Part shown: positions 14,770-35,411 of the stretch, piece after piece
Position numbering within the stretch: position 1 is the first letter of the stretch
Layout: every line of letters begins with the position of its first letter
NCBI RefSeq assembly: GCF_011801145.1
Contig: NZ_CP046172.1
Span: 6,758,001-6,822,000, forward strand
Direction of reading: 5' to 3'
Length of the DNA: 64,000 nucleotides
Source of the DNA: Nocardia arthritidis
GTDB taxonomy: Bacteria > Actinomycetota > Actinomycetes > Mycobacteriales > Mycobacteriaceae
The notes under the pieces: model-generated
Seen by the model: the letters and a program-made list of their open reading frames with translations, nothing else
The model's database searches: none
What the model was told of the DNA's origin: nothing
Translations under genes and position numbers: made by a program

Positions 14770-15183
14770 CTACCGCCCTGCGGCCGGCCGATTCGTTCTT
14801 CTGTTGACGGCCGATCGGTCCCACCAGCCCGCCGGAACAGGCTCGACGTCGAGCCCGCCGCGATCGACGTGTTGTTCCTGGCTGCACAGCGCCATCGGAC
14901 CATGCTCGCTGTCGAGGACGACGCGAAGATGCGGTTCGCAGTGGTTGAGCCACCAGTGGCTCATCGCGTTGGCGTCGGTGGCGCCGGCTGCGACGGCCGC
15001 TTCCCAGGACCGCCAGAGGGCATTGAGCCGGAGAACGACTTCTGGGTGAGCCCACCAGCGGGGGCACCAGCGCTTGCCTGGTTGTCCCGGTTTGCCCCAG
15101 AGGCGGCGGTTGATTGCGGGTGCGAACCAGGACTCGACCCAGTCCACTACGTTCGGGTACCGCGGTTGGGGCTGGCCGGTCAT
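14770..15183 (-). CDS. DUF4913 domain protein
   Basis: 137 residues with the tryptophan-rich DUF4913 pattern: FPVVDW-like opening NVVDWVESWFAPAINRRLWG, then KRWCPRWWAHPEVVLRLNAL, WRSWEAAVAAGATDANAMSH and WWLNHCEPHLRVVLDSEHGP. In actinobacterial mobile elements DUF4913 genes commonly sit beside the conjugative coupling ATPase, as here. The start ATG overlaps the coupling-protein stop in an ATGA arrangement. The short C-terminal tail (WWDRSAVNRRTNRPAAGR) is basic. No biochemical role is known to me for this family; a cytoplasmic accessory of the transfer machinery is the natural guess. Confidence 0.75.
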   Translation of the reverse strand: MTGQPQPRYPNVVDWVESWFAPAINRRLWGKPGQPGKRWCPRWWAHPEVVLRLNALWRSWEAAVAAGATDANAMSHWWLNHCEPHLRVVLDSEHGPMALCSQEQHVDRGGLDVEPVPAGWWDRSAVNRRTNRPAAGR

Positions 15184-17024
15184 TCCGGTGCCTCCCTCCA
15201 GTCAGGCGCGGATCGGTACTCGGACTGTTCCACCGGGTCAATTCCCTTGAGTGCCGGTCGTTTTGCACCGAACGGCTCGATCCCGTGCGAGATGAGACTG
15301 TCGTTGATCGCCGCGCGGTGCTCGGAATCCCACCACCAGATCTTGTTGACGAGGATTGGCTTGTGGTGGGGGAAGCGGATGATCGCTCGTTGTTTCGGTA
15401 GGGCGGCGAGGTCGTCGACGGTGAGGATCTCTTCGGTGCGCCAGCTCAGTGAGCGGCTTCGGCCGCGTGGTCCGGCGGCGATCGATTCGGTGAGGGTGGA
15501 AACATCGTGGCCGCCAATAAGTTTCGAGAGGTCTCCCAAGTATTCGGTGTCGGCGACGTTGCCGCCGTATATCTGCACGCTCTGGTCGAGCATCTCTGCC
15601 ATTGGTCCTGGCCCCCATACACGTTCGCCCTGCTTGCGCGACTGGAGGAAGGTCAGGGGGATGATCCCTCGGCCGCCGAAATGGCTGTATTGAGAGGGTA
15701 ATTCGGGAAGTTTGCAGATGTTCGCGACTTCATCGAGTACGGCAATGAGCGGAATCAGAAGGCGGCCACCGTGTTTTGTTGATTCGGCGACTGCTGCGTC
15801 GAGGACTTGGCCGACCAGTGCCGTCGTCAGGGCGGCTGCGGAGTCGGCGCCCTCCATCGAGAGTGCGTAGAGGGTGTCGCGGCTGGTGACGAACTGGACA
15901 GGGTCGAACACCGGCAGATTGTGTATGTATGTTCCTGGCTCCGTGCGGATGTCACGCCCGCCAGTGAGTACGAAGCGGCGTCGACGAGGCGGCAGCGCCA
16001 TGCGGGCGTAGTCGTCGTCGGACAGCACGTCCAGGAACCGTCGCGCCATATCCAGGAGTCCATCGCGCTGGCGGGGATGGAGGTCGCGTGCCTCGCCGAT
16101 CCGGGCTGCGGCACGAAGTTTGCCTGCGGACTGCAGTATTCGGTCCGCCGTCTCATCGAGAGGGTTGCCGAGCCACTCCAGAACGTGGACCAAGTCGCCG
16201 CCAGCGATCGCGCTGGCCAGCATGTATAGGGCGAGGAGTTCTTTGGCGCCGCCGTCGAAGTAACTGTCGACTCGCGAGTCGATAGGAGTGGATGCCGCGA
16301 CGAAGAAGGATGCCAGTCGGCGAGCGTGTCGGAGTTGCGAGACGTGGGCCAGAGGGTTCCACCAGAATTCGATTCGTTCGGCGCCGGTGACGCCCTGGGG
16401 GTCTGCGAGCCAGGTTCGAGCGCCGTTGCTGCGGCGCGGTAGGTCGGTGTGCGCCCAGACATCGGCTTTGTTGCTTGTTGCGATGCATGGTCCTGGTGCG
16501 TCGAGGATTGCGCGGATCGCGTAGGCGGCGGATTTTCCGGTTCGGGTTCCGGCGATTACCGTGCAGACCATCTCCCAGACGAGGTAGACCGGTCTGTGTC
16601 CAGATATGGTGTACCCCAACAACATTCCGCGGTTACTGCCATCGTGCACCTCCGGTCCGCTGGTTTTGTCGACGCCGATCAGTTCTCGCGGGGATTGCAT
16701 TGTCCGCGCGGCGATGTCGACACCGCAGCCCGTCCGGCTGCTCCACTTTCGCCAGGCTGCTGCAGAACCCACCGCTGCGAGAACAGCGGCGAGTGCGAGC
16801 AGGACCATGGTCGACTCGCGCGGCCACTCGACTGGATCGCCGGATAGCGCTCGATGGACGGGATTCACCGTAATGGGTAAACCGGCTGCCCACTGACCAA
16901 TTGCCAACGCTGCCCAGCTCGCCAAAATCATTGCGGCGCAAATCAAAGCTGCCCACGCGAATGCATCTGCACCCAACGAGGTTCCGGTCTGTCCGCCCGG
17001 GCGGCGCCGACGGATTTCAGTCAT
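15180..17024 (-). CDS. VirD4/TraG-type coupling ATPase
   Basis: 614 residues from ATG 17024, which overlaps the upstream stop by 8 bases; the longer frame to 17126 lies inside the preceding gene. Two N-terminal membrane segments come first (ADAFAWAALICAAMILASWA and MVLLALAAVLAAVGSAAAW). Walker A is CTVIAGTRTGKSAAYAIRAI (about residue 160) and Walker B is LIPLIAVLDEVANI (about 428). The end of the domain has FGGRGIIPLTFLQSRKQGER. This is the inner-membrane ATPase that presents DNA-protein substrate to a type IV secretion channel. It is VirD4-like rather than the FtsK-like TraB of Streptomyces, so it would normally partner a relaxase; none was recognised in the window. Confidence 0.88.
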   Translation of the reverse strand: MTEIRRRRPGGQTGTSLGADAFAWAALICAAMILASWAALAIGQWAAGLPITVNPVHRALSGDPVEWPRESTMVLLALAAVLAAVGSAAAWRKWSSRTGCGVDIAARTMQSPRELIGVDKTSGPEVHDGSNRGMLLGYTISGHRPVYLVWEMVCTVIAGTRTGKSAAYAIRAILDAPGPCIATSNKADVWAHTDLPRRSNGARTWLADPQGVTGAERIEFWWNPLAHVSQLRHARRLASFFVAASTPIDSRVDSYFDGGAKELLALYMLASAIAGGDLVHVLEWLGNPLDETADRILQSAGKLRAAARIGEARDLHPRQRDGLLDMARRFLDVLSDDDYARMALPPRRRRFVLTGGRDIRTEPGTYIHNLPVFDPVQFVTSRDTLYALSMEGADSAAALTTALVGQVLDAAVAESTKHGGRLLIPLIAVLDEVANICKLPELPSQYSHFGGRGIIPLTFLQSRKQGERVWGPGPMAEMLDQSVQIYGGNVADTEYLGDLSKLIGGHDVSTLTESIAAGPRGRSRSLSWRTEEILTVDDLAALPKQRAIIRFPHHKPILVNKIWWWDSEHRAAINDSLISHGIEPFGAKRPALKGIDPVEQSEYRSAPDWREAPE

Positions 17025-17784
17025 CCCCGCACCACTCGTTGAGTGTGGGATCGACGTACGCGGCAGTTTCGCTGAGATCTTCGGCGACCTCGCTTGGTTC
17101 GTCGAAGCGTGCACCAGACAGGGCATCGGGTGTCAGCTCCCCTCCGTCGGGGAATGCTGCCGTCACAAGATCCTCTGTGACATCGACGTCGAGATACGTT
17201 GCGGCGCCGGTGTTCTCGTTGCTGACGCTCACGTTTTGATACTGTTCCGGCTCGACGAGCACCTGCCCCTCGAACTCGTTGCTGGTCTCAGTACGTTCGC
17301 TTGAACGGGAGGTGGATGGCTCCGTGCCAGCCGGATCATCCTTACCGACCGCCGCCTCCTCGTAAGGCGATGTGTCGATGCCCGCATCGCTGAGGTAGCC
17401 GGTCCATTCAGCGTGAGCGGCGGGTTCGAGCCTGCGGACCGCGTCGTACGCGGCCATCCGAGCCTCGCCAGCGCGCCGCTCCAACTGCGCCAGCTGCTGA
17501 CGCAGTTGCGGCACCTCAAGCACATCCTGATGCTTTTGTAATTCCCGGCGTAGGCGCAGAGCCTCCAACCGCCGCTGTTGTTTTCGATCCTGCGCTCGCT
17601 CGCGAAACTCCAGTTGTCGTGCTTGCCGTTCCCGGCCCTGTTCGGCTCGGTCGGCTGCACGAACGGCCGCTTCGACCGCGACCTGGTGGAGCTGCGCGAG
17701 CGCCGTCAACGCCTGAAGCAGTTTGGACGCGGCGGTTCCGCTCTCGCGAACAGCATCGTCGACTTCGCCCGACATCGCGGTCAC
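17017..17784 (-). CDS. Coiled-coil protein between the giant protein and the coupling ATPase
   Basis: 255 residues. Residues about 20-110 form a long charged helix: LHQVAVEAAVRAADRAEQGR, RERAQDRKQQRRLEALRLRR and QLRQQLAQLERRAGEARMAA, with heptad-like leucine spacing. The second half is acidic and probably disordered (DDPAGTEPSTSRSSERTETS; EDLSETAAYVDPTLNEWCGD). No membrane segment or enzyme motif is seen. Only 3 bases separate it from the giant gene upstream, and it overlaps the coupling ATPase downstream. A linking or chaperone role between those two proteins is an inference from order alone. ATG 17784 or the second Met (MSGEVDD) could be the start. Confidence 0.65.
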   Translation of the reverse strand: MTAMSGEVDDAVRESGTAASKLLQALTALAQLHQVAVEAAVRAADRAEQGRERQARQLEFRERAQDRKQQRRLEALRLRRELQKHQDVLEVPQLRQQLAQLERRAGEARMAAYDAVRRLEPAAHAEWTGYLSDAGIDTSPYEEAAVGKDDPAGTEPSTSRSSERTETSNEFEGQVLVEPEQYQNVSVSNENTGAATYLDVDVTEDLVTAAFPDGGELTPDALSGARFDEPSEVAEDLSETAAYVDPTLNEWCGDD

Positions 17785-17787
17785 CTC

Positions 17788-20700
17788 CTACAGGCTTGGG
17801 CCGGTGTCGCAACCGGGGTCGGCATCCTTGGATGCTTCGTTGGACGTGGCTATCCAGTCGGCTCGGAGGCTCACACCGCCCGATGGTTCGGTCATCTGTA
17901 TCAGGGAATTCGGCGGTCCTGTCGCCTCCGCCGAAGCCGGCAAGGGGCCGCTCCGTCCAACCTCCGGGTTCGGAGATCTTCCGCTTTCAGCTGCCCCACC
18001 ATGTACAGCAGGTCGAACTGCGGGCTCAGAAGATATTGCGCGACAGTATGTTTCATGCGCGGCCTGCTTCGCGGCCACCCGCACCGCATCCACGGCCGCA
18101 GATCGGTTCGCCGCCAACTCTCGATACGTCTCGATTGCAGTCATCCCGGTCTGAGTGAAAGCCGCTCGCGCGCTCAGGGCGTCCAGACCATGTTGAGTGT
18201 CGTCGATCGCCATCAGCAGTTCCCGGACGCGTGGATCCGCACCAGTGGTTGCTATGTCGAGATCAACGCGGCTGCGCCGCAGATCGCCGTACCACCACCG
18301 ATAGTCGACGTTGCGACGTTCCCGCGCGGCATGCGCCTGGTGAACGGCCGATTCGGCGGCAGTCGCTTCTACGAAACCCCGGCTACGCGTGCGTATATAA
18401 CGCTCCACGGTTTCTTCCGCGAATTGGAAGTGCTGTCGTTCGAGTGACTCGGCACCACGGATCAGAGCATCGTGTCGGGCATCGAGTTGTGCTGAATTCC
18501 AACCGGTTACGTAGATCGCCGGGGGCAGGATGTCCGGCGATTCGTAGCCGTGCCAGCGTAAAGACCGGACAATCGCCTCCCTATCGCGTTGTTCGGCGAC
18601 GGCGAGTACATGCTGGCTGCCGTGCCGTCCGCCGTCCTCCCTTATCACGATCTCTTCTGGGTCGTCGACGTACTGCTCGCAGATCCCCAGGATCGGCGCG
18701 AGCACTGGCAGAACTTGCCCCGCTGGCCGACTCGTCAGGTCGGCATGGCTCATGGTGAAGTCTCTGTCCACCGTGGCAGCCTGGAGCGCCTTAAGGTGAT
18801 CGAGCTGGGCCTGATACTCGGATAGTTCGCTGCGGACCCAGTCGGGTATTTCGACGGCTCGGCAGTCATGTCCGTGTGCCGTCGGTGCGGTCAGATGTTC
18901 GCAGACGTCACGGACGTCGGAGACAGCTCGGTCGAAGTGCAGCTCCTCCGATACTCGTAGCCCGGTTTCGGATACCCGACCGCGTTGTGTCACAGCCCAT
19001 TTGCCGTAATCACGGCCGACTGTGACGAGTATCTGTGGCTCCTGAGGGTCATAGAAGTGGACGGTGAAGATGTCCAGCAGTGCGGTCCAGTACTCATGTT
19101 CGAGCACCGCTGAAGGGACAACGGCCAACGTCGCCTCTGCCCGCAGTCTGTCCGCGATCGGCTTGACGGCGCCATCCCCATCAGATTCGAATAAGTCGGA
19201 GTTGTAAGTCAGTCCATCGGCAACCGAACTGGCCGATTCCGGTTGGCGCAGCGATCCTCGTGCGGCAGTCCGGCCGGCATCGATGCCCCGGTTCGCCGCA
19301 GTCTCGATGACGTTCTCGCTCACGCCGAGTACCCGAGCGGTGTCCTCGAGATCCCGTAGGTGTTCGAGCAGTCCCGGTGCTTCCAACCGGGCGAATTCGC
19401 GAGCGGTGTCGTATATCGCGGTGAGCGCCTGATTCCGCTCGCGATGTGTTCGGGCGGAACTCAGCTGCTCCCAATCGGTCACCGCAAGATCGGATTCGAT
19501 TTGGAATGTTCGCTTGCGCTGCTCGTCGGCCGCCGCCCCGAACCTGCTGGTGTCCACCGCTTCTCGGATCTGCTGGCGCAGGTCATCCAAGTGGATAAGG
19601 AGATAGAGTCGCAATCCGGCCAGTCGATCGTCGGCCAGTCGGACCGCGGTGGACTCGTAATCCGTGAATAGGGCTGTGAGACTGTGGTTCTCACCCATCC
19701 GAACGTCCAGAGCTTCATTCAACAAGTCCAGTCGCTGGGCTACCTCCTGCCCACTTCCTTTTATATCTGACAGCGGCAGGTCGGCGTTGCCGATCGGATT
19801 AGCACGGTTCACCTCTGCGCAGATGATCACGGTTGACGTCTCGTCGATGTTGTCGCGCAACCACTTACGGGCATCACGATCGCAGAGGAATGCTTCGACA
19901 CGTTCGACGGTTACGTCGCCTCGTTCATCGAGTTCAGCGATGCGGGCCCGATATGGCAGGGCACCGTCCCGGTCCGGAGTGGCCGCGGCGTCGCGGGCCG
20001 CACGGCTCAATGTGTCGAGTTCGTCCTGGATAGCTCCAAGCCGTGCACGTGCGTATTCGGGCACCTCGATCGGGTCCAGATGCTCACCGCTGCGGCCGAA
20101 TTCAGCACTGTATGGCGCTCCGATCTCCAGGTCGCTGAGCAATTCGGCCACACGCGCTGCATGGCCTTCGGCTACCGAGCCGACTCGGCGCTCACCACCA
20201 GGGACAGTGGCGTTGCGCCGATACTCGTAAACCGCCCATTCACCGTGGTGCAAGACGACTTCGAGTACACGATCGCTATCCGCTGGATCGGTGAACCGCA
20301 CGCGTTCACCAGCATTTCGCGCGGCTTCGAATCGCGCCTGTGCCACCTCAGCCGGATCGGTCGACGTCTCGCAGGTTTCTGCACGGCGGCCGTCTGTCGG
20401 CAGGACATCTGGAGCCAATCTCGCCAGTCGGGCAATGCGTTCGTCGAAGTAGTTGAGATGGTCGCGGATTCGGTTCGGCACCGGAACCGGGGGCCAGCGG
20501 CGTATCCCGCTCGCCTCCTCCGAGAGGACACCCCGCGACAGATCGCCCATCAGGTCACCGGCACGCCGGTAGCGCGTTGTCGTTCCGACGATCTGATAGC
20601 CCTCATCGTCACGAATGCCGTCGAAGGCCGCCCACCCGCCAGCAGCCCATCCGATCGTGACGATTCGCTCGGGCTGACGGGTATCGGCAAATTCCATATC

Positions 20701-23424
20701 CCAGGGCCGATTGCACAGCAGAGCCAGTTCTGCTGCGGCATTTTCCACGTCGAGAACGACAGAATCAGGGACCGGTTCGGCGAATCCTCGGCGCTTGATG
20801 GCTTCGATGTGGTGGGGCCGAACACCAGCCGCGAGGGCCGCCTGTTCGGCCTGCCAGTAACGCTGTTGGATCCTCCTCGGTGCCTCGGCGAGGCTGCGCC
20901 GCGTCACGGTGCTGGCGGCGGCATGGCACACGGCCTCTACTTCAGCCAACCTTTCGGCCTGCTCCGCCGTTAAGTCGATTTCGCCGATGACCTTGGCGAA
21001 CTCATCGAAATGTGTTTGCGCCCAGCTCGATTCGTTCATCAGCCGGTCGACCCGAATGCTGATCTCATTACGGATACCGGAGGCGTCGCCGAGGACACGA
21101 GCTAGTTCTGTGCGCAATGCCAGCAAAGTGTCTTCTGTCTCGGCGAGATCAGGATCTCCCACGCGCAGAACCGAGCCTTCCGCGCGGTCGATGGCGCTCT
21201 CCACGACCTCGACGTAGTCGGCGACGGCCGGAGCCAAAACCGCTGTCTCCAAGGAGATTACGCTCGGCAGGAACTTCAGGGCCCCGCGATTCTCAGCGGG
21301 CTGGTTCAGATAGCGGATGTAATGGTCCGGCGTGCGTCCATCAATAATTTCTTGCAGGTCGCCGTCGCCCAAGCGGGAAACGGTACGCAAGCGAGCTTCG
21401 TAGGGACCGTTGTGCTGCTCAGCCAACGTCATCAACCATGCATGCGCACTCTGTTTATCGGCGAACCGGGCCGTGAGCGGAACCTGTAACAGCTCCGGCA
21501 GATCGGGAGCCACCGCCTGAGCGAACGCCACAGCATGACCAGGCGGAGCGAAATCCGGTTCCTCGGAATTAATTTCGACCGTTGCAGTCCAGTAAGCGCA
21601 CCGCACAATGGATTCGATCGCCGCGGCCTCAAGGCCTTCGGTGGCCGCTTCGGCCCGCAACGCCCGATAGCGATCTGTCAGCGCGTCGATATCGGCTCTT
21701 TCATCTGGGTAGTCGTGGGCATGTAGTCCCTGACGAGATGCGTGGATCGTCAGTTCGACCGCCGCCAGCGCCAGTTGCTCGCCCACGTCATCGACTGGCG
21801 GCACCTCGGTGCCGAGCTCGGTCAGCATCCGCTCCCAATGTGCGCGCGCAAGGTCACCGCGGGGCACGACCTTTGCAATCTGCTGCGCGACCCATGCGTC
21901 CTCACCGACCAGATTAGGTGCCGTCAACATGGAAAGGATCTGCTCGCGTATGGCATTTAGCTCGGCGTCGAATTCCTCGATGACCTCGAACGATCCGGTT
22001 TCGGCCAATTCGATGAGGCGCCAGGCGTACTTGGTGGTCAGTCCATGCAGCAATGCCGTATCGAGCGGCTGATGATCGGTGAAGCCAGCATTGGAATGCC
22101 GTATATCTAGCCGGAACGGCCCGTCCTCGGAGAACGCGGGAGTCGCGTGCGCGATATCGACGGGTCCGATGCCCAATTCGAGTGCCGCTGTAAACTTGGC
22201 CGCCATCTGCTCGACGAGATACTCTGCGATCGGATCCAGCGCAGGGCCACGTGGCCCATAACTACGGAGCTCGGCGGCAGCCTGGTCGAGCGCTTCGATG
22301 GCCTCACGCTGATCGGCATCCAATGCGAGCGGCTGCTCCGCGCTGTCGCTGATCCACTTCTGGCGGGTAGCCGTCACCCGCACCAAGGCCCGGGTGAGAT
22401 CGACAGAGCTTTCGTAGTCGGACAGCGTGCCGATGGCGTCACTGGACAGTTGGATCGGCGGGTAGGTGTCCACCTCGACGCCCAGCTTGGTCAGTGCAGG
22501 GCCTGATTCGAGAGCATCGGTCAGGCCGGAGAGCCTTTCCGCCGCAGCGAGATCACCCAGATAGATCCGCTCACCGGTCACCGGGTCGCGAGCGACTGCG
22601 GCGGCGCGCCAACCGTTTTGGCCACCTGCAACTTCCACCAGCTGGCCATCACGCGTAGGCACTATTACCGATACGCCGGTGTCCAGTAGCTCACTGAGCT
22701 GTCTGCGGTAGCGGAACGCCAAGTCGATGTCGTCATGCCCGCGAGCTCGGTCAGTCGCCTGTCCTTCGCCGGATGTTGCCGAATCATCTACTTCTGCAAT
22801 GGGATTCAATACCGCGAAGTAGCCCTCGCACTTCAGCACGTTCAGCACGCGCTCAGCAGCGGCGGCAGTATCGCGTGGATCGCCACTACCAGAACCGTCG
22901 CGCATCCGGCCGATCCGATCGTCAATGGTGGTCAGATGGTCCAGAACATCAATGTGCCGACTGATCGCAGCATGGTTGCCGAACTCGGCGATGGCGACGC
23001 GAAGTTGGCCGGTCCGCACCCACGCCTCGAATGCGAAACCGCAGCTCGGGTCTACCGCGAATGCGCGAGCCCAGGCGTAGTCCAGACAAAGTTGCTTCAG
23101 GGCAGCGGCGTCAGCCATCACACTGCCTGTGAATTGCGGCTCGGTGTCGACCGCCACGGCGAGTAGGTGTAGGTCATTGCGGACGATCGACCGTGCAGCG
23201 TCCGTCTCGCGATACAGCACCCGCATTCGGCCGGAATGAGGGTCGAACGCGCTCAGCGAAGCGTCGATCTGCCCGGATCCATTGCGTACCTTATCCATTA
23301 ACCACAGCCGCGCGCTGCGCTCGCAGTCGAACCACGCTCGGGTGGGGTACTGCTCATCGTGTTCGCGATAGGCAGCATGGTAGGGCGTCGGTAGCGACTC
23401 TGCGGAGACATTTCTCGTGTTCAT
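17788..23424 (-). CDS. 1878-residue protein of unknown function with four diverged repeat modules
   Basis: Largest gene of the window. There is no signal peptide, membrane segment, Walker motif, HUH relaxase motif or metal-site pattern that I can see. The chain is acidic, mostly helical and very charged. Four copies of a module of about 85 residues occur near 252-341, 916-998, 1050-1138 and 1461-1548. Each has a beta hairpin with a G-W-A core (GGQNGWRAAAVARD; GWAAGGWAAFDGIRDDEGYQ; VVLHHGEWAVYEYRR; VTVGRDYGKWAVTQRGRV) and a later P-x-x-x-R-x-x-L helix (VPNRIRDHLNYFDERIARL; EVPEYARARLGAIQDELDTL; EIPDWVRSELSEYQAQLDHL). The last 80 residues are Pro/Gly/Ser-rich and look disordered. The gene lies just upstream of the coiled-coil and coupling-ATPase genes, where MobF-type relaxases of similar size are often encoded. 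Confidence 0.75.
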   Translation of the reverse strand: MNTRNVSAESLPTPYHAAYREHDEQYPTRAWFDCERSARLWLMDKVRNGSGQIDASLSAFDPHSGRMRVLYRETDAARSIVRNDLHLLAVAVDTEPQFTGSVMADAAALKQLCLDYAWARAFAVDPSCGFAFEAWVRTGQLRVAIAEFGNHAAISRHIDVLDHLTTIDDRIGRMRDGSGSGDPRDTAAAAERVLNVLKCEGYFAVLNPIAEVDDSATSGEGQATDRARGHDDIDLAFRYRRQLSELLDTGVSVIVPTRDGQLVEVAGGQNGWRAAAVARDPVTGERIYLGDLAAAERLSGLTDALESGPALTKLGVEVDTYPPIQLSSDAIGTLSDYESSVDLTRALVRVTATRQKWISDSAEQPLALDADQREAIEALDQAAAELRSYGPRGPALDPIAEYLVEQMAAKFTAALELGIGPVDIAHATPAFSEDGPFRLDIRHSNAGFTDHQPLDTALLHGLTTKYAWRLIELAETGSFEVIEEFDAELNAIREQILSMLTAPNLVGEDAWVAQQIAKVVPRGDLARAHWERMLTELGTEVPPVDDVGEQLALAAVELTIHASRQGLHAHDYPDERADIDALTDRYRALRAEAATEGLEAAAIESIVRCAYWTATVEINSEEPDFAPPGHAVAFAQAVAPDLPELLQVPLTARFADKQSAHAWLMTLAEQHNGPYEARLRTVSRLGDGDLQEIIDGRTPDHYIRYLNQPAENRGALKFLPSVISLETAVLAPAVADYVEVVESAIDRAEGSVLRVGDPDLAETEDTLLALRTELARVLGDASGIRNEISIRVDRLMNESSWAQTHFDEFAKVIGEIDLTAEQAERLAEVEAVCHAAASTVTRRSLAEAPRRIQQRYWQAEQAALAAGVRPHHIEAIKRRGFAEPVPDSVVLDVENAAAELALLCNRPWDMEFADTRQPERIVTIGWAAGGWAAFDGIRDDEGYQIVGTTTRYRRAGDLMGDLSRGVLSEEASGIRRWPPVPVPNRIRDHLNYFDERIARLARLAPDVLPTDGRRAETCETSTDPAEVAQARFEAARNAGERVRFTDPADSDRVLEVVLHHGEWAVYEYRRNATVPGGERRVGSVAEGHAARVAELLSDLEIGAPYSAEFGRSGEHLDPIEVPEYARARLGAIQDELDTLSRAARDAAATPDRDGALPYRARIAELDERGDVTVERVEAFLCDRDARKWLRDNIDETSTVIICAEVNRANPIGNADLPLSDIKGSGQEVAQRLDLLNEALDVRMGENHSLTALFTDYESTAVRLADDRLAGLRLYLLIHLDDLRQQIREAVDTSRFGAAADEQRKRTFQIESDLAVTDWEQLSSARTHRERNQALTAIYDTAREFARLEAPGLLEHLRDLEDTARVLGVSENVIETAANRGIDAGRTAARGSLRQPESASSVADGLTYNSDLFESDGDGAVKPIADRLRAEATLAVVPSAVLEHEYWTALLDIFTVHFYDPQEPQILVTVGRDYGKWAVTQRGRVSETGLRVSEELHFDRAVSDVRDVCEHLTAPTAHGHDCRAVEIPDWVRSELSEYQAQLDHLKALQAATVDRDFTMSHADLTSRPAGQVLPVLAPILGICEQYVDDPEEIVIREDGGRHGSQHVLAVAEQRDREAIVRSLRWHGYESPDILPPAIYVTGWNSAQLDARHDALIRGAESLERQHFQFAEETVERYIRTRSRGFVEATAAESAVHQAHAARERRNVDYRWWYGDLRRSRVDLDIATTGADPRVRELLMAIDDTQHGLDALSARAAFTQTGMTAIETYRELAANRSAAVDAVRVAAKQAAHETYCRAISSEPAVRPAVHGGAAESGRSPNPEVGRSGPLPASAEATGPPNSLIQMTEPSGGVSLRADWIATSNEASKDADPGCDTGPSL

Positions 23425-23552: not shown

Positions 23553-25067
23553 TCAGGTGATGCGCCTCGCTCGCGCACCGGACGAAACCGGGCCTTCCTT
23601 GACGTACTCGCCAGGCTGCGGCGCTTCGATCTCCTGTCCGCTTCCGGCGGCGATCGCAACGTGTCCTGGGCCCGCGGGCCCGAAGTTGCTGAACAGCAGA
23701 TCGCCCGGACGGGCGTGATCGAGGGGAACCTCGGCACCGACTTCCCACTGCTGCTCCGATGTGCGGGGCAGGGTACGACCGGTCGCCGCGAATACGGCCG
23801 CAGAGGTGAATCCAGAGCAATCGAAGCCGCCGTTGCTTGGCCCGCCCGGTCCGCCGCCGCCCCAGACGTATGGCGTGCCGATCCATTGACGCGCTGCTGC
23901 GACGATCTGTAGACCGACATCAGTGCGACCATCAGGCACGAATTCGCCTGAGCCGCCCGGTATTCGGAAATTCGGCTCGGTGGCGAGTATGCGGCTGACG
24001 TACGCCTGTGTCTCTGCGTAGGGCGGGATTCCCTCGTAGGCAAGCACTTTGTCGGCGCCAGCGTTGTAGGCAGCGAGCGCGAGGGCCGGGACGTCGCCGT
24101 GAACACGACCGGACGCATTCCACTGCTCGGCTTGCGAGGCGAGGTAGCACATATAACGTGCCTGCCCAACGATAGCGTCGCCGTCGTCCCACACCGATGT
24201 GGCACCGTTGCCGTCAGCGTCAATCACGAACGGTTGCCCGTCGAGCGGATCGATGGCTTTCGCGGTGCCGGGCAGGAATTGCGCGAGCCCTTGAGCCCCG
24301 GCGGGAGAAGTCAGGTCGCGGACGAAACCGCTCTCTTGTTGGACTTGTGCGGCGAGCAGCGACGCGCTGATCTGTGGACAGAGCGATCCGCCACGACGGA
24401 ACCACTGCTCGAGTTCCGGAGGCACCTTTCCTGGGGCCAGGCTGGCACCGGGTGTACCAAACCCATTCGTGCACAGTTGATCTCGCGAAATGCCAGGGGT
24501 GACAACCCCCGCCAGCCAGGGTATCGGGTCGATGGGACTACCGCCCTCCAACCGGCCACCGGGAACGACCTCGAAATGCAGATGCGGTCCGGTCGATTCA
24601 CCAGCTGAGCCCACGTCCGCAATGTGCTGACCAGCTGTAACCTGATCGCCGACCCGGACATGCACCCCGTCGTCGAACATGTGCCCGTACACCGTGGAGA
24701 ACCGTCGGCCTTGTTCATCGACGGAGTCGACGACGATCCAATTCCCGAATCCGGATGCAGGTCCCGCGGCGACTACTCGGCCCGCCGCCGCAGCGAGAAT
24801 GGGAGTGCCGGCCGGAGCTGCGAAATCGACGCCCTTGTGTGCGCCACCGCGGGCGCCGAAGACGTCGGAGACGGTGAACGAGCCGCCCAAAGGATGCGTC
24901 CGATTCGCCGACGGCGCCGGCAGCGATACGGCAGCTTCGGCATGCCCAATCATCTCGGCTCCAGGCGCGCAACCAGAGTCGCTGCTAGGTGCGATCACCA
25001 GCGCGACGAGCAGCACCATCCCGGCCGTCGAGCCGAGTCCAGCGGTTGCCACCATGCTGGTACTCAT
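23553..25067 (-). CDS. Exported cell-wall hydrolase: M23 peptidase, lytic transglycosylase and NlpC/P60 domains
   Basis: 504 residues from ATG 25067 (ATGA overlap with the VirB4-like stop). The N-terminal anchor or signal is TAGLGSTAGMVLLVALVIAP. The M23 domain has metal-site HKGVDF (about 77) and TGPHLHFE (about 164). The lytic transglycosylase domain follows, with catalytic Glu in AAQVQQESGFVRDLTSPAGA (about 244) and LALAAYNAGADKVLAYEGIP. The C-terminal NlpC/P60 domain has Cys in NGGFDCSGFTSAAVFAATGR (about 417) and His in GPGHVAIAAGSGQE (about 470). It can thus cut stem peptides and glycan strands, opening the wall for the secretion channel. The three-domain architecture is typical of Gram-positive conjugative systems (VirB1-like role). 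Confidence 0.9.
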   Translation of the reverse strand: MSTSMVATAGLGSTAGMVLLVALVIAPSSDSGCAPGAEMIGHAEAAVSLPAPSANRTHPLGGSFTVSDVFGARGGAHKGVDFAAPAGTPILAAAAGRVVAAGPASGFGNWIVVDSVDEQGRRFSTVYGHMFDDGVHVRVGDQVTAGQHIADVGSAGESTGPHLHFEVVPGGRLEGGSPIDPIPWLAGVVTPGISRDQLCTNGFGTPGASLAPGKVPPELEQWFRRGGSLCPQISASLLAAQVQQESGFVRDLTSPAGAQGLAQFLPGTAKAIDPLDGQPFVIDADGNGATSVWDDGDAIVGQARYMCYLASQAEQWNASGRVHGDVPALALAAYNAGADKVLAYEGIPPYAETQAYVSRILATEPNFRIPGGSGEFVPDGRTDVGLQIVAAARQWIGTPYVWGGGGPGGPSNGGFDCSGFTSAAVFAATGRTLPRTSEQQWEVGAEVPLDHARPGDLLFSNFGPAGPGHVAIAAGSGQEIEAPQPGEYVKEGPVSSGARARRIT

Positions 25068-26716
25068 GCGACGCCGGTCCCGAATTGACTGAAGCGACTG
25101 TTCGTGTCGTGAATCCCGGCCTCGATCTCGGTGTGGCACAGGTGCATCTGGAATGGGATGCCGGGGCGACGGTCCTCACCGACCTTGAGCAGGAATTTGC
25201 CGGTGCCGGGTGGGCACGGCCGCGGCTGGCCGGGCTGAAGCGCTTCTCCGGTAAGCGCTTGCGGCGCCGACCAACTGGTAACCATTTCTCGCTCGCTGCT
25301 GGTGAACGGAGCGATGGAATCCAGGCGCGCCAGCTCTTCGGCGGGCAGCGCACCGAACATCTTGGCGCGAGCGCGTTCGAGGAACCCGAGTGCCTTCGCG
25401 ACCGCAGCTGGATTGTGCAGCGACTGTAGGTCTTTGATGGTGTGGCTGATCATGATCAGCGCCGTGCCGATGCCGCGTTGCAGCCGGGTGAGTTCGTCGA
25501 CTCGATCGACCATGAAGTCCCCGAGGCCCAAGACCTGCCACAACTCGTCCATCACGACCTGGAAGTAACGTTGCGGCCCGTGTCCGGTGTCGGCAAGGAC
25601 GTGGGCGGCCTCCACCGAGGCGAAGCCGTCGGCCCAGCAGGCGAGCATCACGGCGGCCTTGAGCTTCTTGTCTCCGGAAGGAATGTGAGAGACGTCGACG
25701 CAGACAGCGGTTGCGTCGGTATCGATATCGGTGGTTGTGTGGCCGTTGAATATCGCCCCGAATGGCCCCTGCGTGAGGGCGCGAAGAGAACGACGCAAAC
25801 CCTTTATGGCAGAGCGGTATTCGAGCACATCATCGGCACCGGCGTCGAGCAGCAGCTCCTCTCCCCCACCAATGACGACTTCCAGCAAGTCCGACAGCAG
25901 CGGCGGCTGGTCAGGTGTGAATCCGCCTGGTCCGTAGAGGATTCGGAGGGCGGTTGCGATTAGCGTCTCTTCGAAATCAGCGACTCGTGCGCCGCGGATG
26001 AGCTCGATAAGTCCGGCTATCACTGTGACCTGCCGAGCCCGGAGTTCGGTGGCAACTTGTTGCGCCACTTCGGGATTGCCGCTGAGGACATCCGTGACTC
26101 GACCGAGGGCACCAGCGGCCAGCGGGTTGAGGTGTCCATGCCCGTAGCCGAGATCGATCACTTGACCGCCGACCACCTCGACCAGCCGACGGTAGTCAGG
26201 CTTCACGTCGGCAAGGATCAGTGGCGTGATCCCTTGAACAACACCACCCAGAACAATCCGCCGAACAAGCGAGGACTTACCAAAACCATTGAGGCCCAAT
26301 ACGAACAGACTGGGTGCGGTGATGAAGCTGCCGCGCATGAACCAGTTCATCGGGTCGAAACACACCGGGGCGCCGGTGTGGAGGTGCGAACCCAATGGAG
26401 TGCCGATCAAAGGTGCACCGGCGCCGACCGACCACGGCCATAGCCCCGCTACCTGAGCGGTCGACGCTCGGTATTCGACCGGCCGCGCCACTACTGCACA
26501 CCGGCCGCCGCCGTATCCGAGATAACCGCGGTCGCTCGGTCGAGCGACCAGGCGGTCGAACCTTTCCAGTTGCGTCGCAGCCGAACGTGTTTCGGCACAC
26601 CGGCGACGATTGTCGTCAGCTCGAAGGCGCTGTCCCGCCCACCAAGCCCGCAGCCCAGTACGAGCGCGTCGAGTTTGCTGGAGCTGCATACGGGTGGCGT
26701 CGTCGAGCAACTTCAT
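25064..26716 (-). CDS. VirB4-like secretion ATPase
   Basis: 550 residues from ATG 26716 (ATGA overlap with the WhiB stop). It begins MKLLDDATRMQLQQTRRART. Walker A is FVLGLNGFGKSSLVRRIVLG (about residue 145), followed by LILADVKPDYRRLVEVVGGQ. Walker B is FQVVMDELWQVLGLGDFMVD (about 390), with RGIGTALIMISHTIKDLQSL after it. These match the C-terminal ATPase half of VirB4/TraC/TrwK proteins. The N-terminal VirB4 portion is very short here, and the neighbouring SCO6880 protein probably supplies that part, as in other actinobacterial systems. It powers assembly and transport at the inner membrane. Confidence 0.88.
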   Translation of the reverse strand: MKLLDDATRMQLQQTRRARTGLRAWWAGQRLRADDNRRRCAETRSAATQLERFDRLVARPSDRGYLGYGGGRCAVVARPVEYRASTAQVAGLWPWSVGAGAPLIGTPLGSHLHTGAPVCFDPMNWFMRGSFITAPSLFVLGLNGFGKSSLVRRIVLGGVVQGITPLILADVKPDYRRLVEVVGGQVIDLGYGHGHLNPLAAGALGRVTDVLSGNPEVAQQVATELRARQVTVIAGLIELIRGARVADFEETLIATALRILYGPGGFTPDQPPLLSDLLEVVIGGGEELLLDAGADDVLEYRSAIKGLRRSLRALTQGPFGAIFNGHTTTDIDTDATAVCVDVSHIPSGDKKLKAAVMLACWADGFASVEAAHVLADTGHGPQRYFQVVMDELWQVLGLGDFMVDRVDELTRLQRGIGTALIMISHTIKDLQSLHNPAAVAKALGFLERARAKMFGALPAEELARLDSIAPFTSSEREMVTSWSAPQALTGEALQPGQPRPCPPGTGKFLLKVGEDRRPGIPFQMHLCHTEIEAGIHDTNSRFSQFGTGVA

Positions 26717-27051
26717 GATGCTGCCCTCCGACTCGCCTCCCGCTTGAAGTCCTCCGCAGCGGCCCTCGGGCTCTGTGCGGATGCCAACTGCGCAATAAGC
26801 GCACGGCGTGCTGCCGCGCCACGACCTCGCCCTGCCGTCAGACGAAGGCATTTCCGCAACGCTCGACGTTCGGCGGCGGTAAATCCGCCCCAGACGCCGT
26901 GGTCTTCGCCGCTGACCAGAGCGTTTCCCAAGCACTCTCGCCATACCGGACAGGTCGCGCACCATTCTTTCGCATCCGCACTCAGGTCATCGTCGAAGAA
27001 CGGGTCGTATACACCGCGGCATGCGGCCTTGACCATCCAGTCGCGGTTCAT
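26713..27051 (-). CDS. WhiB-family iron-sulphur regulator
   Basis: 112 residues from ATG 27051, which overlaps the DUF2637 stop (ATGA). The longer open frame upstream is arginine-rich shadow. Four cluster-ligand cysteines occur as WMVKAACRGVYDPFFDDD then EWCATCPVWRECLGNA (one Cys, then CxxCx5C). The WhiB turn GVWGGFTAAERRALRKCLRL and a basic AT-hook-like tail (TAGRGRGAAARRA) follow. WhiB proteins bind a 4Fe-4S cluster and act with the sigma factor as redox- or stress-sensitive regulators. It is unusual in lying inside the secretion operon, coupled to both neighbours, and may tie expression of the transfer genes to cell state. Confidence 0.92.
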   Translation of the reverse strand: MNRDWMVKAACRGVYDPFFDDDLSADAKEWCATCPVWRECLGNALVSGEDHGVWGGFTAAERRALRKCLRLTAGRGRGAAARRALIAQLASAQSPRAAAEDFKREASRRAAS

Positions 27052-27860
27052 GACGACACCGCTTCCGATGGGCGACGCGCCTTGTCCGCCGCGTCGAGAA
27101 TCCGCCCTACAGTCGAGTGGTGCGTGTCGACATCTCGACCGATCCGCCGATGCGACCAGCCTGCTTCGTATTTCAGGTGCAGAATTCGCGCGACAACCTG
27201 CGGGTCTCGCTGACCGGTCGGGTCGGCCGCACAGACCTGCTCGGCGACCTCCCACCAGCGTTCCTCCGAAACTCCTTGCGATACAGTCTGTTCGGATTCA
27301 GTTGAGTCGGCCCAGTGGCGAGTCAGGAAAGACTCGTTCCGATGCTGCAGGGCAACAGAATTCGAGATTCGCTCGTCGATCGACCCGTAATTGTGAGCCT
27401 CAGAGTGGGCGCTGGTCCGAGCAAGAATGGCCAGCCCATGGGTCGCGGCCAGGAGGCTGACCGGCGCGACGGCAGCGATTGCGGCCGCGACGAGCGCTGG
27501 CAGCGGCCCCGCGTTGATCCATGCGTGAAAACCGTTGCCGGAAATGCTAATAGAAGCGGCTCCGGTCAGTACCGTCCAGAAGAACCTCCGGTGCCGTCCG
27601 GTATCCAGGTACGGTGCCAATGCCACGATCGCCACGGTGGACTGCACAATCGTCCCGTCGATGATGACGGGCCACAGCCACGCCAGCCGAGGCGGTTGTC
27701 CGGCCTTGATCGCGAGATCCCATAAGGCCGCGAATGACAGCACGAAGCCCGCGACACCGATCCCGATGGTGGTGACAATGGCGACCACGCGGGCCAGCAT
27801 GATGACCGGCGGAACATTCATTGCCGCCTGGTAGACAATAGGTTTGGTCATCGCGATCAC
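27048..27860 (-). CDS. DUF2637 membrane protein with C-terminal helix-turn-helix
   Basis: 270 residues. The start is GTG 27860 (GTGA overlap with the SCO6880 stop) or ATG 27851. Four membrane helices fill the first 150 residues: VVAIVTTIGIGVAGFVLSFA, LAWLWPVIIDGTIVQSTVAI, FFWTVLTGAASISISGNGFH and LPALVAAAIAAVAPVSLLAA, with the DUF2637 signature W.PV..D. The C-terminal 70 residues (DPQVVARILHLKYEAGWSHR then RIGRDVDTHHSTVGRILDAA) form a helix-turn-helix of the kind seen in DUF2637 proteins of actinobacterial plasmids and integrative elements. It is probably a membrane-tethered regulator or replication/partition-linked protein of the element. Confidence 0.8.
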   Translation of the reverse strand: MIAMTKPIVYQAAMNVPPVIMLARVVAIVTTIGIGVAGFVLSFAALWDLAIKAGQPPRLAWLWPVIIDGTIVQSTVAIVALAPYLDTGRHRRFFWTVLTGAASISISGNGFHAWINAGPLPALVAAAIAAVAPVSLLAATHGLAILARTSAHSEAHNYGSIDERISNSVALQHRNESFLTRHWADSTESEQTVSQGVSEERWWEVAEQVCAADPTGQRDPQVVARILHLKYEAGWSHRRIGRDVDTHHSTVGRILDAADKARRPSEAVSS

Positions 27861-29359
27861 CCCAATGCCTTCGGTACGGTGGCATGTTCAGGCAGAATCA
27901 CTCCGCACCCGAGCGAGGCCGCGAACGCGGCGGCTTGGTAGCGGTAGCAGCGCCGAATCTTCAATCGGGCCTGCGTCGACAGATCTCGAACGATTGCTTC
28001 GATTCCCGGCAGGTCACCGTCGAGCGGTTCGGTGACCGTGATCAGCGCACCGAAGCGAGCTAGACCGTGCCCGCGCGCCTGCTCCTCGCGGGTGTGCTGG
28101 GTAGCCTCCACGCGCAACACCGCCGCCGCCGAGACGACACCGCGTTCGGATTGCTGTGCGACGAGGGCGTTCTTGTAATCGTCATCGACGATCTCGGCAG
28201 CGTCCGCGGCGGTGTGCGGACGGAACACGAGCGCGACGCGCTTACGCGGAGTCTGCGGGTTCGGAGCCAAAAGCCGTTGCAACACATGCTCGTCGACAGT
28301 TCCCTCCGGCGCGGCGTCCATCTCCCATGTCACCGACCGGCCGCCGTCGTGGATGTAGTGGTCCCACCTCTCCTCGTGCGAAACCGGGCCGGTGTCAGAC
28401 CAATCCAGGCCGTGGCCCTCCGGGTCGGCTGCCGCTACTTCCAGATCCGCTTGCGCGGCCGGGTCGTAGCTGCGTCGAACGACCGCGATCACCTCTCCGG
28501 CGTTCATCGGTCGTGCCCGGACTCCGGCATCGGCCAGCGCGGCGCAGATGCCCGGCAGTCGGCGAGCGATCTCGACGGCCTGTTCGGCGGGGTTCTTGCG
28601 CCGTTCCGCCGTGGCGGCGGTGAAGGTGATCGCGCATCGGCCGGATAGCTGGACTCCGTCTGTCGGGAGTTCCTCCGCGAGTTCGGCCATCACCGCCTTC
28701 GCGATCGCTGGAGCACCCGAGCGGGTGATGGCGTCGATTTCGGCCAGCAGCCGGTTCCCGGTTTCCGGAATCGTATCGATCAGCGTGGTGACTGCCGCGA
28801 TATCGCTGGTCTGGCCGAGCGAGGCGAGGAACGTTCCCCATGCGGCGACCCACTGATCGATGAGCGGTTGATCGACGGCCTCGTGGCCTTGTGGCCAAAC
28901 CCGAAGCACCACAGTGTATTGGGCGAACTTCGGCAGGTGGATCATCGCGAAGCGGTATCCGCCGGAATCGATCCCCTCATAGCAACGAGCCCCAGCGAGC
29001 AGCCCGGGTAGCTGGGTCGTGCCACCAGGGATGCGGGAGAACCGCCCGCCGCGGTAGATGTGCTCGCCGTGCCGCCGGGCCAGCATCCATCGGAGTCGAA
29101 TCCAGCCGGTCTCGTATCCGGATCGGCCACCGTGGCGCCAGACGAGCGGCACTAAAGCGACCGCTCCCGCGCCTGCAACGACAAGACCGACGCGAACACC
29201 CACAATCACACACGCCAGCAGCGCGGCGATTACGACCACGAATCCGAGAACCGTTTCTCCCCAACGCAATCCGAACAATCCCGCTGAGCGAGGGCGCTGC
29301 CACAATCCGTAGGAGCGACGCTCGTAGGTCGAGGCGGTCTCGTACACATGCGTAGTCAT
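27857..29359 (-). CDS. SCO6880-family T4SS protein
   Basis: 500 residues; ATG 29359 overlaps the TrbL-like stop. It begins with MTTHVYETASTYERRSYGLW, two membrane helices (LRWGETVLGFVVVIAALLAC; VGLVVAGAGAVALVPLVW) and then a large soluble part: YRFAMIHLPKFAQYTVVLRV, IDQWVAAWGTFLASLGQTSD, GEVIAVVRRSYDPAAQADLE and RKRVALVFRPHTAADAAEIV. The family is named for Streptomyces SCO6880 and accompanies the VirB4-like ATPase in actinobacterial transfer loci. It is thought to stand in for PrgI/VirB3 plus the VirB4 N-terminal domain. The order here (TrbL-like, SCO6880, DUF2637, WhiB, ATPase) supports that role. Confidence 0.85.
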   Translation of the reverse strand: MTTHVYETASTYERRSYGLWQRPRSAGLFGLRWGETVLGFVVVIAALLACVIVGVRVGLVVAGAGAVALVPLVWRHGGRSGYETGWIRLRWMLARRHGEHIYRGGRFSRIPGGTTQLPGLLAGARCYEGIDSGGYRFAMIHLPKFAQYTVVLRVWPQGHEAVDQPLIDQWVAAWGTFLASLGQTSDIAAVTTLIDTIPETGNRLLAEIDAITRSGAPAIAKAVMAELAEELPTDGVQLSGRCAITFTAATAERRKNPAEQAVEIARRLPGICAALADAGVRARPMNAGEVIAVVRRSYDPAAQADLEVAAADPEGHGLDWSDTGPVSHEERWDHYIHDGGRSVTWEMDAAPEGTVDEHVLQRLLAPNPQTPRKRVALVFRPHTAADAAEIVDDDYKNALVAQQSERGVVSAAAVLRVEATQHTREEQARGHGLARFGALITVTEPLDGDLPGIEAIVRDLSTQARLKIRRCYRYQAAAFAASLGCGVILPEHATVPKALG

Positions 29360-30810
29360 CGGCGAATCACCCCCGATGGCCGAGCCTGGCTCGGACTGTC
29401 ACCGGTCAATCGCCCAGCGGCACGATCCGCACTCCGCGCCAGGGTGCCGGTTGTAGCAACCGCCGTGGACGATCGCCGTGAGGAAGTGCGCCCACCCGCA
29501 CCGGCAGGTACTGCTCCGCCAGTAGCCGTGCCCCCGCCTTGGGCCGGGCGAGGCGGCGGCGAGTTGGGCGGCGGAACTCTACCGCCACCTGCCGAACCCG
29601 ACGGGCGAGGGCCGCCCCCGCCCGATACAAATCCGGCGGCACCGGGCGCGGCTGCTCCTTTGGCCCCCAACGCCTTCCCGCCAGTAGCCGCTGCGGCAAC
29701 GGCCAACGCAGCCACTCCAGCAGCACCGAGTCCGGAACCACCGGCACCAATTGTGGAAACAGCCGGTACGACCAGCCGCATCAACGCAGGAAGGACGAAC
29801 GAGACACTGCACAACAACACGACACCGACCAGGATGCGTTGTGCCTGTTCCGAATTCGGTGTATCTGATGCAGACTCAGCGCCGATCGATCCAGCGGTTG
29901 TGAACGCGATCATGTAGACGACAGCGGCGACCGGCTTCCACAGCAGGAAGGCGATCACCCAGCCGATCAGCTTCTGATACGACTGCATCCCGATCTTCAG
30001 CCCTGAAGCTGCCGCCGCCACCGGCACGAATCCGACGGCAACGATCAATAGGCCCTGTCGAATCACCGCGAGCACACACTGCGCCAAGGCGCCGAGCAGC
30101 CCGACGACAGCTACGACCAATATCAGCCCTGGCGAAAAAGCTTGCAATTCATTGGTTTTCACCATCAGCTCGGCGATGCCCTTGGCGTTGCCTCCGGTTG
30201 CGTCGTCTATCAACCAGGTCGATAGCCGGTCGCCTCCGCGGGTGCCGACGACAATGATCGCTCCGAACATCCATGACGACAACACAACTCGCGCATATAG
30301 TCGGAATCCTTCGGCCGCTTGGTCGAGCGTCGCACCGCGGCGGGCCTCCGCCAGCCTGATACCGGTCACGATCGTCGAAGCGATCAGGAGTATCAGCTGA
30401 ATCTCATAGGTGTAGTCGGAGACCTTTGTGAACAATCCGCTGTCGGCGAGTTGCTCGTTGGGCAGTTTGGTCCACCAAACCAGTGACAAGGTGAGCGCTT
30501 GGCCTAGTCCTTCCAGCAGGGAATCCACGACTTTGCCGAAGGCCGAATCCCATGCCTTGTCCGCGATGGCACCCGGCACGTCCTGCGGATGGCTCGCGGC
30601 GTTGCCGCCCTTGCACAGCGCAGACGCCGAATCACCGAGTGCTGATCCGATTCCGAGAGGAATCTTCGACAGCATGTCGTGCAGCTGATCACACGTTGCG
30701 TCGAACCCATATGTGTTGCCGCCTGAATCCGGCTGCGCGAGTGCGGTATTCGGCACAGCCAATGTCAGTGCGAAACAGGCTGCCAGTGCGACGATTACGC
30801 GTTTCACCAT
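29356..30810 (-). CDS. TrbL/VirB6-like polytopic channel protein
   Basis: 484 residues from ATG 30810, chosen because it yields a signal peptide (MVKRVIVALAACFALTLAVP then NTALAQPD) and overlaps the upstream stop by 7 bases. At least five membrane segments follow, including IQLILLIASTIVTGIRLAEA, LILVVAVVGLLGALAQCVLA, GLLIVAVGFVPVAAAASGLK, LIGWVIAFLLWKPVAAVVYM and ILVGVVLLCSVSFVLPALMR, the last four resembling the TrbL/VirB6 core. The C-terminal 130 residues are Gly/Pro/Ala-rich (GAKGAAAPGAAGFVSGGGGP; PPPNSPPPRPAQGGGTATGG), an extended, probably disordered tail. It forms the inner-membrane channel. Confidence 0.85.
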   Translation of the reverse strand: MVKRVIVALAACFALTLAVPNTALAQPDSGGNTYGFDATCDQLHDMLSKIPLGIGSALGDSASALCKGGNAASHPQDVPGAIADKAWDSAFGKVVDSLLEGLGQALTLSLVWWTKLPNEQLADSGLFTKVSDYTYEIQLILLIASTIVTGIRLAEARRGATLDQAAEGFRLYARVVLSSWMFGAIIVVGTRGGDRLSTWLIDDATGGNAKGIAELMVKTNELQAFSPGLILVVAVVGLLGALAQCVLAVIRQGLLIVAVGFVPVAAAASGLKIGMQSYQKLIGWVIAFLLWKPVAAVVYMIAFTTAGSIGAESASDTPNSEQAQRILVGVVLLCSVSFVLPALMRLVVPAVSTIGAGGSGLGAAGVAALAVAAAATGGKALGAKGAAAPGAAGFVSGGGGPRPSGSAGGGRVPPPNSPPPRPAQGGGTATGGAVPAGAGGRTSSRRSSTAVATTGTLARSADRAAGRLTGDSPSQARPSGVIRR

Positions 30811-33770: not shown

Positions 33771-33909
33771 CGGACCAGCTCCAGTTGCACTGCGGCAGAA
33801 CGACAATCGACGCCATTACGGCGAACTACGTTGCTTCCCTTCGGTTCCGAATCCCGATCGACAGAAATCCGGGTATCGGACCAAGCCATGCCGACTCGAA
33901 ATGACGTGT

Positions 33910-35346: not shown

Positions 35347-35375
35347 GAGCCCTCCTTGCCGAAGCCTTTGAGTCA

Positions 35376-35411
35376 ATTAGTTCTGAGATTAGCGCTTAAA
35401 TTAGAGCTGTC
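35376..35411. promoter_or_regulatory. Three 12-bp direct repeats between divergent genes
   Basis: ATTAGTTCTGAG, ATTAGCGCTTAA and ATTAGAGCTGTC follow one another without gaps, all sharing ATTAG at exact 12-base spacing. They lie 30 bases ahead of the cutinase start and about 95 ahead of the XRE gene, so a regulator bound here could control the whole secretion operon and itself. The likely binder is the adjacent XRE protein, an inference. Confidence 0.5.

Follow-up and report, generated by a model that had tools for sequence, protein, structure and literature searches.

A stretch of 64,000 nucleotides from Nocardia arthritidis (NCBI RefSeq assembly GCF_011801145.1, contig NZ_CP046172.1, positions 6,758,001 to 6,822,000; "the window" below, numbered from its first letter) carries a type IV secretion system (T4SS) operon whose largest gene encodes a protein of 1878 amino acids, named P0001 here. 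P0001, made up of several modules, is an accessory and probably delivered protein of an integrative conjugative element (ICE) of the MobF type, and is not the relaxase of that element. The evidence consists of its modules, the family defined by them, the genomic linkage of that family, a separate relaxase, and a C-terminal tail that resembles the tail of the relaxase and belongs to a tail type that switches with the class of element. Docking on VirD4, translocation and activity in the recipient are proposed from the sequence. The chances are about even that P0001 is a fused multi-module protein whose tail serves for docking on VirD4 and which travels to the recipient together with the DNA. On this reading, the tail would dock on the VirD4 coupling ATPase of the element, as the tail of the relaxase would, P0001 would then be a protein passenger of the type IV machine, and in the recipient its modules would aid the establishment of the incoming element.

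The original prediction described four repeat modules in P0001, and this is borne out by a profile of the module, called GxW, whose 24 rows all come from other proteins (they were gathered earlier with a profile that still contained window rows). The profile matches P0001 at the four predicted places, all encoded on the minus strand: module A at residues 234-344 (22393..22725; independent E-value, iE, 1.9e-5), module B at residues 893-1000 (delimited as 892-1000, 20425..20751; 4e-13), module C at residues 1023-1139 (20008..20358; 3e-25) and module D at residues 1437-1544 (18793..19116; 3e-7). The best iE among 200 shuffles of P0001 is 2, and the reversed sequence has no match at E 10. A second profile, seeded without window rows from a pool without P0001, finds the same four places and one stretch at chance level. 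Alignment of the modules to one another holds for part of the set. All pairs among B, C and D beat 500 of 500 shuffles, while module A is weaker, with scores reached by 9 of 500 shuffles with C, 2 of 500 with D and 92 of 500 with B. In a leave-one-out profile comparison of the four, C (1.4e-6) and D (3.1e-6) are recovered, B reaches only 0.26 and A is not found.

Module D is preceded by the motif ...DGLTYNSDLFESDGDG... and has a blastp match (E 3e-7) to an 868-amino-acid GxW protein. The AlphaFold2 model of module C (predicted local distance difference test, pLDDT, 83; predicted template modelling score, pTM, 0.74) has the order helix, four strands, helix, strand, helix. A tree of 27 modules, resting on a short alignment and of modest support, places C with 353-amino-acid-type proteins (support 0.97) and D with a 490-amino-acid protein (0.91); B is placed with supports of 0.90 and then 0.48, and A with 0.70. 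Simple tandem duplication was considered and set aside, as the four modules fall beside different relatives; separate origins look likelier. Because the modules group with different relatives, P0001 looks like a fusion of modules that are separate elsewhere.

A second repeat type, overlooked in the original prediction and common to the relatives of P0001, was termed WL. A WL profile free of window rows, its seed rows picked by eye, matches P0001 with E 5.5e-6, most of the signal coming from residues 16-90; none of 500 shuffles scored better than 0.043. With an earlier profile of fewer rows the values were 0.0024 for P0001 and 0.095 for the most favourable shuffle, which no individual stretch of P0001 surpassed. 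Three places on the minus strand can be named, and only the first appears individually credible: residues 16-90 (23155..23379; iE 0.0027), a tentative module at residues 631-686 (21367..21534; iE 8.4 with the smaller profile and unfound by the larger) and a weak one at residues 1153-1217 (19774..19968; iE 0.45 and 0.37). All seven module stretches, GxW and WL together, are acidic, with net charges of -3 to -10. Overall, P0001 resembles a joining of GxW and WL modules which in other elements are found in smaller proteins with genes of their own.

GxW and WL proteins are, by these profiles, a narrow family whose named sources are Nocardia and Aldersonia and whose genes often adjoin VirD4 genes. 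P0001 has both family features, a GxW module found by an external profile and a WL module. The genes adjoin VirD4-DUF4913 or VirD4-DUF1173 pairs, which mark two element classes of Nocardia (class 1, the class of P0001's element, and class 2, DUF1173-type elements), and the family also occurs in Aldersonia. In class 1, three further GxW proteins of 524-566 amino acids lie beside VirD4-DUF4913, all with WL rows. In class 2, the order VirD4, DUF1173, GxW protein, 459-type protein is kept in the island at 2.19 Mb of the same genome and in L055, L056, L057, L060 and L061; the 2.19-Mb island has a different machine, an 868-amino-acid protein with three GxW modules and a 353-amino-acid protein with one. 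The 459-amino-acid-type protein beside GxW genes (L010:2906-4285 and relatives) is cysteine-rich, with CxxC pairs, and ends ...RRHL. A search of 150 genomes of the genus with the GxW profile gave modules in at least 10, the own genome included, which is an undercount, as the GxW proteins of the L130 and L134 genomes surfaced only by reading beside VirD4. Adjoining VirD4-DUF4913 in another locus (L129:9346-18021, minus strand) is a 2891-amino-acid protein that matches ResIII and Helicase_C above cut-off and, weakly, SNF2 and a methyltransferase; near its N-terminus it is 30% identical over 190 amino acids to the 868-amino-acid GxW protein.

The relaxase of the element is encoded elsewhere in the same insertion. 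An intact MobF protein of 1745 amino acids, with TrwC relaxase, AAA_30 helicase and Toprim parts, lies at window positions -13413..-8176, 26 kb from P0001, behind a phage-type integrase (-19163..-17847) at the left edge of the insertion; the integrase is followed by a DUF932 gene, a ParB-like gene and then MobF. In three relatives, collinearity with the own genome extends as far as roughly -19.2 to -19.3 kb. It returns at about +301.5 kb in two of them, and the third has no further match in the 364 kb searched. From this comparison, integrase, MobF, T4SS and P0001 are taken to share a single, perhaps composite, insertion of about 320 kb. A search for exact att repeats of 16 bases gave no match, and one of 13 bases gave two unconvincing ones. 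The own genome has four TrwC (PF08751) matches, none inside the P0001 gene, and four coupling-protein matches, and one of each lies in the insertion. PF03432 is absent from the genome; relaxase searches covered the TrwC and PF03432 families.

That P0001 might itself be a relaxase replaced beyond recognition, as the original prediction allowed, was suggested by its MobF-like size and its operon neighbourhood. It is scarcely credible now. P0001 has no PF08751 or AAA_30 match, no Walker A (G-x4-GK[ST]) and no paired HUH, its H-x-H at 568 and 1517 standing alone, so that the earlier observation of no relaxase motif holds. With an intact MobF in the same insertion the relaxase job is already filled, and there is nothing for P0001 to replace. 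A 534-amino-acid GxW protein and a 1779-amino-acid MobF also share one 16-kb contig in Aldersonia. Separate relaxases accompany GxW genes in other related elements as well: on the same stretch in L056 and, as a fragment, in L057, and adjoining the GxW gene in L059. The disguised relaxase was therefore rejected, its motifs and domains being absent and a canonical MobF nearby. The premise that MobF often occupies the place of P0001 found no support in the loci covered: in 11 related loci with a recognised hydrolase and VirD4, no ORF between the two matches the relaxase or helicase part of the window MobF. One ORF in L091, and one in the 0.94-Mb sibling island, match its C-terminal Toprim part alone; in that island the place of P0001 holds a stand-alone homologue of the Toprim end. 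Such homologues (L013:14575-15663, 45% identity; L091:14615-15730, 41%) correspond to MobF residues about 1366-1670.

The C-terminal tails connect P0001 with the relaxase and with the class of element. In class 2, the MobF, GxW and 459-type proteins, otherwise unrelated to each other, end in [RK][RK]x(0-2)[LI] in 21 of 27 cases against 4 of 555 other open reading frames (ORFs), a count that takes in Aldersonia and two loci with no T4SS in view, one of the four background ORFs being a 459-type relative. In class 1, MobF tails close with an acidic residue, zero to three further residues and then L, I or P in 10 of 10 cases against 33 of 442 background ORFs (424 distinct sequences, including other genes of the same elements); one of 11 class-1 MobFs, in genome G660, was omitted for its split frame (1053 amino acids; the second ORF ends ...GHGADL). 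Both patterns were formulated after inspection of the tails. A MobF frame split into two ORFs is seen in one relative at L137:8828-12933 (minus strand). The net charge of the last 12 residues of class-1 GxW proteins is -3 for P0001 and -2, -3 and 0 for the others, against +2 to +5 for 13 class-2 GxW proteins, a range that excludes L064 (0) and L058 (+5), which have no T4SS in view, P0007-P0013 (+1 to +5), whose context was unseen, and the Aldersonia pair (0 and +2). The last 25 residues of P0001, with the stop codon, lie at 17788..17865 on the minus strand. Among 828 ORFs, P0001 and its own MobF are reciprocal best matches over the last 25 residues, with a score of 36 against 26 and 32 for the next. 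A 2334-amino-acid ORF near VirD4-DUF4913 in another genome (L131:3507-10511, plus strand) ends ...GTELDS, and the MobF of that genome ends ...ATELDL.

In 10 of 16 class-1 loci, between one and eight small hairpin proteins (40 in total) are encoded in the place of P0001, upstream of VirD4; they are referred to here as slot proteins. They have in common a helical hairpin and an acidic tail whose last residue is often L or P; in 21 of the 40 the tail is non-basic, has a G near its end and finishes in L or P, a combination that 20 of the 442 background ORFs also show. A slot list from L086 probably includes chromosomal genes, VirD4 being the sole T4SS gene recognised there. Hairpin arrays were seen upstream of VirD4 in L087, L090 and L093-L100 and downstream in L130, L132, L133, L136, L138 and L139. 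The eight slot proteins of L096 have no Pfam match above cut-off. A model of the last eight residues, made from slot proteins of other elements, ranks P0001 third of the 442 ORFs, itself included, and places the tail of the Toprim-type protein of the 0.94-Mb island above all 442; primases of conjugative elements are among the proteins known to be transferred. A bolder extension is that Nocardia conjugative elements export sets of unrelated proteins, marked at the C-terminus by an address tag that differs between the classes and fits the coupling ATPase of the element (RRxL and basic in one class, acidic with a final L or P in the other), P0001 being a fusion of several such passengers into a single 1878-amino-acid escort of the incoming DNA. 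This is possible, though we lean against it.

Several observations weigh against docking by the tail and delivery. The mapped translocation signals of the MobF relaxases TraI and TrwC are internal and not C-terminal (PMC10025392; this and the other articles cited by PMC number were covered in part). A score as high as 36 comes up in 20 of 20000 shuffles and in 59 of 60000 tail pairs, so that a set of 828 ORFs should contain about 0.8 such matches by chance. P0001 is the best match of MobF at lengths of 15 to 40 residues, at 15 by one point, and at 60 it is not among the four best matches listed for MobF. Applied to other elements, the same ranking places the Aldersonia 534-amino-acid protein third, the L056 393-amino-acid protein second, the L059 318-amino-acid protein tied first, and the 868-amino-acid protein of the 2.19-Mb island tied, behind the 459-amino-acid protein; in the 0.94-Mb island no slot protein is among the nine matches listed. 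In these elements the module proteins do not stand out by tail rank. The strict class-1 MobF pattern does not fit the tail of P0001 either, and the slot-tail model puts P0001's own MobF 37th of 442. Some VirD4 and DUF4913 proteins bear the same tail type, so that the tail may be a general docking tag, and the proteins counted by tail are related, so that the counts are not independent. Finally, a hairpin profile of the 40 slot proteins has no match in P0001 at E 10. P0001 as a fusion of slot-array hairpin proteins, suggested by a regular expression, was rejected when this profile missed it.

P0001 could instead be a donor-side scaffold or adaptor that stays in the donor and bridges the relaxosome and VirD4 by its tail and modules. 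Its gene lies among the machine genes, directly upstream of the neighbour of VirD4, repeat modules suit binding, the similar tails on VirD4 and DUF4913 of some relatives suggest a shared docking site, and other T4SS are known to use adaptor proteins (PMC10025392). However, the 6.31-Mb sibling island has VirB4 and SCO6880-like proteins that are 77-78% identical to those of the window and a 213-amino-acid protein in the place of P0001, with no P0001-like or GxW protein there. The VirD4 of that island is only 34% identical, which would still allow a scaffold specific to P0001's VirD4. A core scaffold would be expected to be conserved, whereas VirD4 relatives of some kind occur in 147 of 148 genomes and the modules in the minority of the genus given above. 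A scaffold role is on balance rather unlikely. The original prediction had proposed a new kind of transfer partner, be it a scaffold, a DNA-binding protein or an effector. A transfer partner is supported by the recurrence of the module family beside VirD4 and by a tail type that tracks the relaxase of the element.

A role for P0001 as a passenger that coats single-stranded DNA (ssDNA), acting in trans in the manner of VirE2 through GxW modules of a beta4-alpha, PC4/Whirly-like fold, is very improbable. All Z scores in that fold comparison are below 8, SH2 and PH domains are also among the rows, and no Foldseek hit reaches E 0.001. The second fold model is poor (pLDDT 57), and the charge is unfavourable, since P0001 as a whole has a net charge of -112 and its modules are acidic. 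P0001 might also be cargo unrelated to transfer, an orphan gene that sits in the operon and serves the element in house-keeping or regulation, for P0001 has no known domain and no full-length relative: among 5.8 billion (5.8e9) proteins it found itself alone, with 7984 candidates scored and hence limited sensitivity. Against this, several distinct elements have members of the family next to VirD4, and their tails vary with the class of element; this explanation is improbable.

Searches for named families were negative. P0001 has no Pfam or NCBIfam family above cut-off, be it a relaxase, a helicase or any other, and a sequence search of the PDB gave no match at E 1. Foldseek with two models in the PDB, and with module C only in a viral library, gave no E of 0.001 or below; a fold search without a match does not make the fold new. 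Translated searches of plasmids (tblastn) gave no match to P0001, and no relatives were found in viral contigs. Among 201 genomes of the bacterial family, only module C matched, in the own genome and in Aldersonia, and in a sample of the order one of 397 genomes matched, the own genome. No literature on P0001 or slot-protein arrays was found in a search whose coverage left out most subscription journals.

The P0001 ORF spans 17788..23424 on the minus strand, with an ATG start and 1878 codons plus stop; its position and length are as in the original prediction, which had not named the strand. The host genome is a single contig of 10.0 Mb. The highest hydropathy over 19 residues of P0001 is 1.45, hence no clear membrane segment, and the protein, which is very acidic, is probably cytoplasmic. 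As claimed before, P0001 is the largest gene of a T4SS-like operon and lies directly upstream of a 255-amino-acid gene, with a 3-bp gap, and then of VirD4; all genes of the operon lie on the same strand as P0001. Read from right to left, the operon starts with a cutinase-like protein, the first gene of the same-strand run (33910..35376; PF01083, E 2e-12), followed by a DUF6668 protein (33120..33806; PF20373, E 8.5e-7) and two conserved genes without a family that have homologues in the sibling islands (31625..32293 and 30804..31628). A VirB6/TraG_N-like membrane protein (29356..31041; PF07916, E 6.5e-4, under the curated cut-off) comes next, then an EccE-like protein (27857..29359; PF11203, E 8.5e-4, also under the curated cut-off), which we take to be SCO6880-like, and a DUF2637 membrane protein (27048..27860; PF10935, E 4e-14). 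The VirB4-type ATPase (25064..26965; P-loop_TraG, E 6e-5, and NF045975, E 2.5e-14, both under cut-off) is followed by a three-domain peptidoglycan hydrolase (23553..25139; M23, SLT and NlpC/P60 by Pfam) and P0001. The last three genes encode the 255-amino-acid protein (17017..17784; no family, coiled coil by eye), the VirD4-type coupling ATPase (15180..17126; TraG-D_C, E 5e-23) and the DUF4913 protein (14770..15183; PF16259, E 7e-29). Outside the operon, a 224-amino-acid HAD-like gene occurs in two copies of opposite orientation (-3530..-2856 and 10248-10922) that share the N-terminal 50 residues, and a transposase-like ORF (8521-9369) lies near the second copy; these names were given by eye.

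The nearest known kind to P0001 is the polyvalent proteins described in phages and conjugative elements (Iyer et al. 2017, PMC5512222). Like them, P0001 is very large and multi-domain, with four GxW modules and one to three WL modules, is encoded beside T4SS genes in a conjugative element, and is predicted to enter the recipient with DNA. Unlike them, it has no recognised catalytic domain and repeats two module types of unknown function instead of joining disparate activities; the disparate, often catalytic domains described for polyvalent proteins are not found, no Pfam or NCBIfam family being above cut-off. P0001 would thus work like polyvalent proteins without being a member. The 2891-amino-acid protein recalls the methylase-helicase dyad of polyvalent proteins (PMC5512222). 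P0001 is like the MobF proteins TrwC and TraI in size and in its place in MobF-type actinobacterial elements, and unlike them in lacking a relaxase domain, a Walker A and a helicase; the element has a MobF of its own. The Arg-rich tails of the class-2 relatives are of the kind described for VirF, and the route proposed for P0001, by way of the coupling protein, is that of VirF and VirE2 (PMC10025392). Passengers through the conjugation machine of the F plasmid include SSB and PsiB (PMC11288057). In contrast to VirF and VirE2 and to SSB and PsiB, P0001 has an acidic tail of its own and is a putative passenger. Among actinobacteria, 17 T4SS-based ICEs with MobF are listed in PMC3218068; the element of P0001 resembles them in bringing together an integrase, a VirD4-type coupling protein, VirB4 and a TrwC relaxase, and the sections covered make no mention of slot or module proteins.

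Whatever the mechanism, a false lead has been removed, for the relaxase is not missing here. If P0001 is indeed a passenger that docks by its tail, tail peptides would make it possible to predict, by sequence alone, which proteins are likely cargo of MobF elements in actinobacteria, and such prediction would reach many genes without a known family.
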